A DNA stretch of 40,901 bases. Source: Halorubrum alkaliphilum. Its GTDB lineage: Archaea; Halobacteriota; Halobacteria; Halobacteriales; Haloferacaceae. Below the pieces are notes generated by a model. That model was given only the letters and a program-made list of their open reading frames with translations, searched no databases and had not been told where the DNA came from. The position numbers were made by a program, and so were the translations under genes. The DNA lies in the NCBI RefSeq assembly GCF_017873815.1, contig NZ_JAGGKQ010000026.1, forward strand, positions 1 to 40,901. Direction: 5' to 3'. Shown here piece after piece: positions 34,911-39,700 of the stretch (positions within the stretch are counted from its first letter, which is position 1; each line of letters begins with the position of its first letter).

Positions 34911-36380
34911 TCAGAAAACGGGTGCTCCGGAGCGGAACGCAGCCGCGACGTCGAGCAGCGTGTTGGTGTCCGCCTCGCCGTCACGGAAGTCGGCGGCCGC
35001 TTCGAGCATGCCGTTGGCGTCGACCTCGCCGGTGTCCGGGTCGGCGTACTCGGCGACCGGGTCGTCGACCTCGCCGACCTCGATCGTGTCGTCGCCGCCG
35101 ATCGTCTCCTCGAGCCCGGCGACTTCGTCCTCGACCGTGCCGGAAAGCTCCACCGTCTCGCCGTCCTCGGCGTCCTCGGGGATCGCGACCTCGTAGGTGA
35201 TCGTCACGTCCTCAACGCCGCCCCACGAGGCGGCGAGCTCGTCGCTGTCATCCGTGACCTGCGAGATCGTGGCGCCGGAATCGTCGAGAATGGAGATCTC
35301 GGCGAACTCCGCCGGCTCGAACGTCTCCACGATGCGCAGATCCTCCGTTTCCTCGTTCAGCTCGGCCGTCACCGTCACCTCAGTGGATTCGCCTGCTGGG
35401 ACCGTCGTCGCGTCGATCTCTCGCTCGGCAGTCCGGATCTCTTGGCCGGGTTCGTCGACGGGTCCCTCCTCGACGACGATGTAGTCGTCGTCGATGGCGA
35501 AGTACCCAAACATTCGCAGGATCCCGTCGGATGTGCTCGTTTCCGATTCGCTCGGGTAGATATCGACTTGCCATCCATCGTACTCCCCCGGCTCCGAGTC
35601 GGTCAGATCCACGGTCCACTCGAGGACGGAGCCGCCGTCGTTCGGGACCTCGGCCGTGTCGACGTCGAATCCCTCGTCGGCGCCAAGACTGGGCCCGAAC
35701 TCGACGTACCACGACTCGTCGACCGGGTCCGGCAGCGTGAGCGTCAGTTCGACTTCGCCGGTGGTTCCGCTCTGTTCTATCGGTGGTCGATCGAACCCGA
35801 TCGCGAAGGTCTGGTCGTCGGTGGCGGCGATAGTCGTCGGGTCATCGACGCTCTCGATGAGCTCGACTCGGTACGAGGAGAACGTCTCCTCTCCAATGAA
35901 CGTGTCCTCGTCACCATCGACCTCGTGTGGGACCTCTTCGATCGGCGCTTCCTCGCCAGCGACCCGGATCTGGAGGTCTCTGTCGCCGTCGGGATACAGC
36001 TCTCCGCCGCGGTTGTACAGGTTTTGGAGGTCGATGCTCTCCACGTTCTCCAGACGGTCACCTTCTGGAACGACGGTGAGATCGGTTCCCGCGGTGAGAT
36101 TGTGCACACGGATGGCCGTCTCCGTGTCGCCGCCGAGGTCGAGTTCACCGGAGACGGCGATGTCGATGCTCATCGAACTGCGGACGTTGTTATCGCCCGT
36201 GCTCGTAGCACCGACGCCCAAACCCGTGTACTCGATTTCGACGTCGTGTGCGGCCGCCGATACCGTGCTCGCACTCCCGACCGCCCCGGCAAGCGCAAGG
36301 CCAGCCGTCGTCGACATCACTCGACGACGACTGAAATGCGCTCCCTTCGAGTTACTTCGCCAGTTACTGTCGCGTGACAT
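34911..36380 (-). CDS. Tat-exported beta-sandwich protein with dockerin-like C-terminus
   Basis: A 489-residue protein. The Tat signal is FSRRRVMSTTAGLALAGAVG. Residues ~45-300 are a large beta-rich domain without a recognised family (SSYRVELIESVDDPTTIAAT, FAIGFDRPPIEQSG). About 305-430 is the domain shared with the genes at 23387 and 36725 (PAGESTEVTVTAELNEETED, ETFEPAEFAEISILDDSG, DELAASWGGVEDVTITYEVA). The last ~45 residues are dockerin-like (DPDTGEVDANGMLEAAADFR, then DTNTLLDVAAAFRSG), nearly identical to the end of the 23387 protein. The coding DNA for DELAASWGGVEDV is almost the same as in the neighbouring S-layer-like gene but on the opposite strand. It is divergent from that gene across 344 bases. 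Confidence 0.8.
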   Translation of the reverse strand: MSRDSNWRSNSKGAHFSRRRVMSTTAGLALAGAVGSASTVSAAAHDVEIEYTGLGVGATSTGDNNVRSSMSIDIAVSGELDLGGDTETAIRVHNLTAGTDLTVVPEGDRLENVESIDLQNLYNRGGELYPDGDRDLQIRVAGEEAPIEEVPHEVDGDEDTFIGEETFSSYRVELIESVDDPTTIAATDDQTFAIGFDRPPIEQSGTTGEVELTLTLPDPVDESWYVEFGPSLGADEGFDVDTAEVPNDGGSVLEWTVDLTDSEPGEYDGWQVDIYPSESETSTSDGILRMFGYFAIDDDYIVVEEGPVDEPGQEIRTAEREIDATTVPAGESTEVTVTAELNEETEDLRIVETFEPAEFAEISILDDSGATISQVTDDSDELAASWGGVEDVTITYEVAIPEDAEDGETVELSGTVEDEVAGLEETIGGDDTIEVGEVDDPVAEYADPDTGEVDANGMLEAAADFRDGEADTNTLLDVAAAFRSGAPVF

Positions 36381-36724
36381 TCGACTGTGAATTGTCTTCT
36401 AATAATATAATCATTTCCTTGCTATCAGCGACTTGCGTGTCCACGCGATCGAGAACAAGATCGGGTCTGTTGCGCGCTCGCCGTTCCCCGGGTGTCCAGT
36501 CTACGAGTTCCCCGCCACCGTTCCGAAGAGCGTATCTCTCGACGCCCGAACGAATCGGTCGCTTGCGTCGGTCTTCCGGACCTGCCGGGGCTCGACGTAG
36601 CACGGTGTATCGACCATATCACACAAAGTATTTAACAAGCCTTACTCAATAAACGAGTGCGTCATACCCGTTGGCATCGGCGAGTAACACCGTGTGAAAG
36701 TCCGTGCTACTGGAAACTACAACA
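36381..36724. promoter_or_regulatory. Divergent region and S-layer gene promoter
   Basis: No supported gene. TATTTAA at 36629-36635 is a plausible TATA box; transcription would start near 36660 and leave a leader of ~65 bases before the ATG at 36725, consistent with the leadered mRNAs known for haloarchaeal S-layer genes. A minus-strand frame at 36364-36603 lacks protein-like character. A TAATAATATAATC stretch (about 36400-36412) could be the promoter of the gene on the minus strand. Confidence 0.5.
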
Positions 36725-39700
36725 ATGACAGACGACACATCATATCGAACCAAGGGACGTGCAGTGTTCCTTGCTGCGATCATGGTCGTATCCATGGTTG
36801 CTGCGGGCGCGGCCTTCGCGGGCAGCGCGGCCGCCGCAGTGGACACGACCGATCGTACCATCGACGAAGTGGAACTTGAGCCCGGTGAAACAACCGAGGT
36901 CACAGTAAGCGTATCGGCAACTGAAGAAAGCAACGACCTTCGCGTGATCGAGAACTTCGATCCCGCGTTCGCTGACGTCACGGTTATCGACGACAGCGAC
37001 GCGACGATCTCCGAAGTCACCGACGCCAACGACGAGCTCGCCGCCTCGTGGGGTGGCGTTGAGGACGTGACGCTCACCTACGAGGTCGAGGTCTCCGAGG
37101 ACGCCGAGGAAGGTGACGAGTTCACCCTCTCCGGCACCGCGGAAGACCGCGACAACGATGAGGGTAACGTCATCGACATCGAGGGTGACACCACCATCAC
37201 CGTCGCCGAAGCTGACAACGGCAACGGCAACGGCAACGGCAACGGCGCCGTCGACGCCGACGACTACGACCGCATGCTCCAGGAAGGCGACACTGTCTTC
37301 CAGGGTCAGCTCGTTCAGGTCAGCGCCGACCAGATCGACGCTGGTGGTCCGTTCGGTGACGACGAAGTCGAGCTCCGCCGCGTCGACGACGGCGAGGTCG
37401 CTGGACTCGTCTCCACCCCGAGCGTGATCGAGGAGGACGGTGACCAGTACTACATCCTCGACACCGAGAACCGTGACGCGGACCGCTACGTGCTGACGAC
37501 CGAGTCGCGCAACACCGATGTCTCCGGTCTCCTCACCTTCGAGGTCGCCGTGCAGGACCTCAGCGTCGAGTTCGACGAGGACGAGGTCGGTGACGTCGAA
37601 GGCGACTCCGAGGTCGAACTGGACATCGAATCCGACATCCGTAACAGCTACATCGTCGAGGTGACCGCCGACGGTCTCGACGAGGAGGAACTCGAGGACG
37701 TCTTCACGCAGGACCCCGAGTCCACGTGGAACACCGAGCGCACTGACGGTCTCGACCGCAGCGAGCTGCACGCTGACCGCGGCTCGGCCGGTGACGGACA
37801 GTACTTCCTCGACGAGGACGATGAGTCGATCATCCTCCTCAACGCCGAGGGTGACGAGCACGTCCTGAACTTCACCGACATCGACCAGGACGAGTACGAG
37901 TTCGAGTTCGAGGTCTACGACTCCACCGCGGAGGACTCCGACTCGATCGAAGTCGTCGAGGGTGACGAGGGTCAAGTGAACCTCGTTGACGCGACGCTCG
38001 ACGAGGAGGTCGGCTCCGTCGCTGAGATCGAACTGGAAACCGTTGGCGGCGCTGACGAGGCCTCGATCGCCATCGGCGACGAGGACGACATCGGCTACCA
38101 GCTCAACGCCACCGTCGACTTCGACGGTGAGGACAGCGTCACGCTGCTGTTCAACACGTACGCTGCCGGCTCCGACGAGTTCGACGGACCCGTCCTCGTC
38201 GAGGACGGCGACAACGACGCCGAAGTCATGGAGTACGAGCAGAACACTGACATCGAGGGCATCCTCGACTCCGGCGACTACGAGATCAACGTCCGCGCCG
38301 GTGCGGACGACGTGAGCGACTTCGAGGACGTCTTCGACGACGCCGACGACCTCGGTTCGCTGTTCCTCGACGACCGCTCCACCGACGCGTGGAACCTCTG
38401 GACCGCCCCCGGCGGTGCTGACGAGGTCGACGACCTCGAGGACGGCGACGACGTGGTCGACGCGGTCGAGGACGGCATCCTCACCGAGACCGACCAGGTC
38501 GCACACGACGACTACCTCGTCCACGAACTCGACGCGACCGGCGTGGCAGGTATCCTCGCCGCAACCGGTGAGGACGACGCTGTGGACCAGTTCGTTTCCG
38601 TCTTCAGCGATGACTTCAGCCACCAGGAGAGCGGTGTGAACTCCTTCGACCTGCGCGTTCGCGAGACTCGCGACAGCGCCGGCCCGAACGTTGAGCGCAC
38701 CGTTCAGACCGTTAACATCGACACGGTCATCGTCGACGAGGACGCCAACAGCGTCTACGTCGTTCAGGAGATGAGCGACGTTATGGGCGCTACTGGCGAA
38801 CTCGCCGGTGAGGAGTTCGACGAGACCGAGGACTACGAGTTCGAGGTCCGCTTCCGCAACAACGACTACCGCCTGCTCGACTTCGACCCCGCTGAGGACG
38901 AAGACGAGGAGCTCTCGGACGTCCGCGAGCAGCTCGACACTGAGTACGACCTGCTCGAGCGTACGTTCGACTTCGACCAGGACCCGTACAACGCGACGAA
39001 CACTGACGACGCGACCTTCAGCGGCGAGACGACGGTCGCGCCCGGCAGTGAGTTCGACGCGCGTGTCCGGTCGACCGGCGACACCAGCCCGCGGTTCAAC
39101 ATCAACGAGGAGTTCTCCGTTGACGAGGACCGCGTCTTCGAGACCGAAGAGTTCGACCTGAGCGAGGCGAGCGTGGGCGACACGTACACGCTCTCGCTCC
39201 GCAACACCGGCGCAGACGAGCGTCCGGAAGTTGACGGCGAGATCGTCGAATCCGACCTCGAACCCGCGTTCTTCGAGGTCTCGGATCTCGACCCGATGGA
39301 CGTGACCGTTGACCAGGGCGACCTGATCAGCGTCACCGCGACCATCACGAACACCGGCGACGAGGACGGCGACCAGACGGTCGAGTTCCGCGTCGGCGGT
39401 GACGCAGTTGCCGACGAGGACGTCGGCCTCGATGCTGGAGACGACACGGAAGTCGAGTTCTCCGACATCGAAACTGACGGCCTCGACGGCGAGTACGAGC
39501 ACGGCGTCTTCACCGACGACGACAGCCAGACGGCAACGCTGACTGTCAACGTCGATGACGACGACGCCGACGACGACGACGACGCAGCTGACGACGACGA
39601 CGCAGCTGATGACGACGACGCAGCTGACGACGACGACGCAGCTGACGACGACGACGCCGTCGACGACGACGCGGAGGACGACACGCCCGGCTTCGGCGCT

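Follow-up and report, generated by a model that had tools for sequence, protein, structure and literature searches.

The two near-identical inverted 58-bp segments that a first-pass annotation had pointed out in two divergent surface genes are homologous core parts of one domain, which we call D0, and code for the same portion of it in the S-layer glycoprotein gene S and in its neighbor, gene A. The reading that we favor, with a probability of about 0.6, joins three elements: the shared D0 core, a gene conversion between A and S, and an island of genes for secreted proteins whose short dockerin-like tails would dock on the D0 of the S-layer protein. The window analyzed is a stretch of 40,901 nucleotides of Halorubrum alkaliphilum (contig NZ_JAGGKQ010000026.1), and the features discussed are collected in Table 1.

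Table 1. Genes, domains, tails, and matching segments in the window
Feature	Positions	Strand	Remarks
Secreted beta-helix/NosD protein, 1665 aa	18155..23152	+	with tail
Dockerin-like tail, beta-helix/NosD gene	23012..23140	+	
Gene B, secreted protein	23375..24376	+	two D0 and tail
D0 copy 1 of gene B	23507..23851	+	
D0 copy 2 of gene B	23867..24208	+	
Dockerin-like tail, gene B	24230..24373	+	
Subtilase (Peptidase_S8), 967 aa	24587..27490	+	with tail
Dockerin-like tail, subtilase gene	27344..27475	+	
Large Tat-type secreted protein	28318..32937	-	InlB-type repeats, CARDB, CarboxypepD_reg, N-terminal module; probable start near 32856
Dockerin-like module of the large protein	32611..32751	-	just behind the Tat-type leader
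Secreted PKD protein	33138..34853	+	weak peptidase M1 similarity; with tail
Dockerin-like tail, PKD protein gene	34710..34850	+	
Gene A, Tat-type secreted protein, 489 aa	34911..36380	-	D0 and C-terminal dockerin-like tail
Dockerin-like tail, gene A	34914..35057	-	model pLDDT 92
D0 of gene A	35076..35435	-	AlphaFold model pLDDT 93
Longer inverted match, A side	35127..35307	-	78% to 36967-37147
58-bp tract in gene A (DELAASWGGVEDVTITYEV)	35186..35243	-	near-identical to 37031-37088
Promoter region between the divergent genes A and S	36381..36724	.	sequence
Gene S, S-layer glycoprotein, 1012 aa	36725..39763	+	halo_sig_pep, D0, DUF7827, BGTF surface domain, PGF-CTERM
D0 of S	36842..37204	+	
Longer inverted match, S side	36967..37147	+	78% to 35127-35307
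58-bp tract in gene S (DELAASWGGVEDVTLTYEV)	37031..37088	+	near-identical to 35186-35243

Gene S is the only substantial match in the genome to the ArtA-dependent S-layer glycoprotein of the Haloferax csg type (NF041335). Its score of 166.6 bits does not reach the curated whole-protein cut-off of 1100 bits; halo_sig_pep, the BGTF domain, and PGF-CTERM each exceed theirs, and we therefore treat S as an S-layer-type surface glycoprotein. It shares with the NF041335 type the halo_sig_pep leader, the DUF7827/BGTF body, and PGF-CTERM, but differs from it in the score (167 bits against 1100) and in an additional N-terminal D0. Since the closest S-layer relative found, from a Halorubrum, passes from the leader straight into the S-layer body, with no D0 and no tails, D0 is an added N-terminal domain of S. 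It measures ∼118 residues and is found once in S, once in A, and twice in B, and the DELxASWG core is kept in all four copies.

The two segments agree at 56 of 58 positions, as the annotation had stated, and have the same codon register; one of the differences is synonymous (GGC/GGT) and the other is a replacement (ATC/CTC). They form the best part of a 181-nt inverted match of 78% identity, which lies within a homologous domain that is identical between A and S at 61 of 101 residues and 69% of nucleotides. A 60-base query against the whole genome returned only the copies in A and S and one more, located in gene B, with 80% identity.

The identity within the tract extends to synonymous positions. 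Where A and S have the same residue, they also use the same codon at 17 of 18 positions in the tract compared to 21 of 43 outside it (Fisher, 5e-4; longest-run permutation, 5.8e-4; codon-usage saturation null, 6e-5), and codon usage alone would lead us to expect ∼31 same codons over all 61 identical residues. In the five other paralogue pairs the same 19-codon block has 8 to 9 same codons out of 12 to 14. The excess in the A-S tract is therefore beyond chance and beyond what protein conservation alone would give, and a bounded tract with excess synonymous identity is the pattern expected of gene conversion. A three-sequence mosaic test on the four D0 copies gave patchy, weaker signals, the best of them in the second copy of B, which resembles A in its left part and S in its right part (P = 8.5e-4 before correction for 24 tests). 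The annotation's suggestion of conversion is thus strengthened, and judging from this one genome we think it quite likely that a short and recent gene conversion produced the tract. Ordinary homologous recombination between the inverted paralogues, which lie ∼1.8 kb apart, would have copied the patch non-reciprocally from one gene to the other. The Val codon GTT, shared in the tract, makes up 3 of 44 Val codons in A and 17 of 102 in S, and since it is rarer in A, this gives a weak hint that S may have been the donor.

Part of the identity is due to biased codon use and to purifying selection on the core of D0, and one could suppose that they explain all of it with no recent exchange, given that the DELxASWG core is conserved in every copy of the window and that these genes draw on a narrow set of codons. 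We regard this as a genuine competitor, but an unlikely one in view of the difference in codon sharing inside and outside the tract, the codon-usage null, the lower sharing in other pairs that have the same core, and the presence in the tract of a Val codon that A seldom uses. An origin of the whole D0 of A or S by duplication of the other, followed by divergence and with no separate conversion, would agree with the fact that the two are each other's best D0 matches (57%). Outside the tract, however, synonymous identity is close to that expected from codon usage alone, which makes the duplication old and the tract young, and duplication as the full explanation is improbable.

The annotation had also proposed that the segments are substrates for an inversion, in which recombination would flip the 1.8-kb promoter region and S and A would trade their 5' portions. 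Inversion of an S-layer promoter is known for the sap locus of Campylobacter fetus, which likewise has inverted homology at S-layer genes, and in our case the segments are inversely oriented and both post-inversion open reading frames remain open (1295 and 221 aa, stop to stop). The predicted product is nevertheless a disruptive one, a chimera of 1295 aa in which the Tat leader and ∼380 residues of A stand ahead of the only S-layer protein, altering its leader and N terminus. An S-layer-type N terminus stands ahead of all of the S-layer D0 domains inspected. The tract is the coding core of a conserved domain and is not recognizable as a recombination site, and the locus differs from sap in that the patch is coding and 58 bp long, S is the only S-layer gene, and nothing indicates that inversion occurs. 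A Pfam search of the larger open reading frames recognized no recombinase, only two IS605 OrfB/TnpB-type frames, and the matching D0 copies in two other genera, those of the S-layer and accessory genes in Halopenitus malekzadehii (G116) and in genome G349, lie on the same strand as direct repeats. Because of these last two results we consider the switch very unlikely, and although a rare inversion by homologous recombination may occur, this part of the annotation is not supported.

The tract lies within a larger arrangement. Beside S, the window contains all six copies that the genome has of a helical dockerin-like module of 47 aa, at the C terminus of five proteins and at the N terminus of one. 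The latter, the large Tat-type protein, is unlike the other cases seen, and its C-terminal part has no Pfam assignment.

For D0, a beta-sandwich is confidently predicted, with a fold that may be cohesin-like. The model of D0 and tail of A has a pLDDT of 93 and a pTM of 0.76, and a Foldseek search with the D0 model placed cohesins among the top matches (E values of 2e-6 to 1e-4). Superposition on cohesins gave VIA Z scores of 10.8 to 11.7 with an rmsd of 2.3 to 3.0 over 118 to 124 residues, and pilin Ig-like and adhesin domains scored equally or higher. The Cohesin profile PF00963 had no significant match in D0, with 1 of 11 D0 members reaching an E value of 0.092, and a PDB sequence search with D0 found scaffoldin proteins at E values of 0.13 to 0.3 only.

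The tails resemble dockerins in being duplicated short helical modules at a protein terminus, and the model of the A tail (pLDDT 92) has two main helices, at residues 21 to 32 and 38 to 50. A fold search with the tail alone gave no significant match (type II dockerin 2y3n_D: Foldseek E value, 6.2; TM, 0.44/0.48; VIA Z, 2.5), and searching the PDB by sequence with the profile of the tails gave none either. Dockerins have two F-hand segments that bind calcium through DxNxDG loops, and this loop is absent from the window tails; one EF-hand-like loop is kept in the tails of two relatives, L155 (YDTNDNGQIDINE) and L193 (DTNGDGIGTSE), and an EF-hand profile matched 1 of 20 tail members (E value, 1.3e-5). 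Given the lack of a significant fold match and the confinement of the EF-hand-like loop to two relatives, we call the tails dockerin-like and not dockerins.

The same arrangement recurs elsewhere. In at least five other genera, D0-bearing S-layer genes also adjoin genes with such tail modules, whereas S-layer loci without D0 almost never have tails beside them. Among 77 S-layer-type loci, tails lie within 10 kb in 4 of 4 with a D0-bearing S-layer gene and in 1 of 73 others (Fisher, 4e-6), a rough figure since some loci were matched by their leader only. In Halonotius roseus (G110), Halopenitus malekzadehii, Halolamina pelagica (G102), and G226, every tail found adjoins the D0-bearing S-layer gene, and Natrinema ejinorense has one tail-bearing neighbor of this type. 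The tail profile found no match in five genomes with D0-type S-layers (G106, G205, G374, G219, and G261). A first search of the genome contigs with protein A found no relatives, and a search of a plasmid collection gave two matches only, one of a leader to Halorubrum lacusprofundi and one of 33 bases. We also looked for an orthologous locus in genomes of the genus and saw only short matches, many of them to S-layer-type leaders.

Both D0 and the tails vary from genome to genome. Tail identity averages 55% within a genome compared to 35% between genomes, and the D0 of the S-layer protein is closer to the accessory D0 of its own genome than to those of other genomes for the window (57% versus 45%), for H. 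malekzadehii (75% versus 32%), and for G349 (60% versus 42%); in H. roseus (38%) and G226 (41%) it is not clearly closer. A within-pair run test for a tract was not significant in H. malekzadehii or G349. The D0 domain also seems to be swapped in one piece, like a cassette, since in H. pelagica and its congener G106 (L114 and L127) the S-layer bodies are closely similar while the D0 domains differ greatly, that of G106 coming closest to one from a genome of another family.

Genome G303 has a much expanded system, with 23 tail modules scattered genome-wide and small D0-bearing proteins at two places. In G226, a gene with D0 and tail is apparently split by an insert of ∼2 kb (L113:7882-8280 and L113:10396-11406), with an identical D0 stretch on both sides. 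Genomes of genus g9 (G077, G083, G085, and G088; L042-L045) encode scaffold-like PGF-CTERM proteins in which D0 is repeated four to six times in tandem, with a repeat length of ∼370 bp.

To our knowledge, little has been established on how secreted enzymes are retained at a haloarchaeal surface made only of S-layer. From co-occurrence and covariation in sequence we infer, tentatively, that the island is a candidate S-layer docking system in which D0 acts as the receptor and the tails as plugs. The D0 on the S-layer would receive the tails of the secreted proteins encoded beside S, so that proteases and other secreted proteins would be displayed on the S-layer, and A and B, each of which combines D0 with a tail, would serve as adaptors. 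Conversion and domain swapping would keep the D0 copies within one genome alike, and all of them would therefore bind the same type of tail. That the S-layer lattice protein itself is the scaffold, with genome-specific docking codes kept matched through conversion and swapping of D0, is possible, and we put it forward with some reserve.

The tails may alternatively hold their proteins to a target other than D0 (a different S-layer domain, a glycan, the membrane), or they may bind substrate, with D0 as a mere spacer. The 23 dispersed tail matches of G303 would fit such a role, as would the substrate binding proposed for C-terminal dockerin modules in haloarchaea (PMC10963439, PMC13260240). The tight co-occurrence of an S-layer D0 with neighboring tails and the variation of both by genome speak against it, and we hold it to be a serious contender, if short of probable. 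If D0 does bind the tails, the island would represent an S-layer display system that is modular and non-covalent and easy to recognize by its sequence signature. It would then lend itself naturally to the display of proteins on archaeal S-layers and would provide a reason for the within-genome homogenization noticed in the first-pass annotation.

Docking on D0 would have its closest parallel in cohesin-dockerin systems, such as those of cellulosomes; Archaeoglobus fulgidus has a cohesin (2xdh). In both cases secreted enzymes have a short terminal helical module and a surface or scaffold protein has a beta-sandwich domain, whose predicted fold in ours may be cohesin-like, and species-specific pairing would account for genome-specific tails. 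The differences are that D0 has no significant Pfam cohesin match and the tails no Pfam dockerin match, that the island tails mostly do not have the calcium-loop residues, that the S-layer lattice protein itself would be the scaffold, and that D0-tail binding is here putative. The literature searched contained no account of haloarchaeal S-layers that combine D0 with such tails. The nearest published idea, also archaeal, concerns ANME-2c proteins that have both S-layer and dockerin domains, for which a dockerin/cohesin pairing was proposed to attach functional proteins to the S-layer (PMC9012536). In ANME-2c it is thus the S-layer-domain protein that bears the dockerin, while here the cohesin-like domain is on S and the tails are on secreted proteins, all in one island. 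Recombination events involving S-layer glycoprotein genes have been documented in Haloferax (PMC5867893), as events within gene clades across strains, and differ in this from an exchange between paralogous domains of one genome.

Two other features of the window were noted. Gene S has a short DDDDAA-type tandem repeat ahead of PGF-CTERM (39555-39680, plus strand), and two OrfB_IS605/Cas12f1-like TnpB-type open reading frames (11582-12862 and 14041-15315, both on the minus strand) lie less than 3 kb apart.
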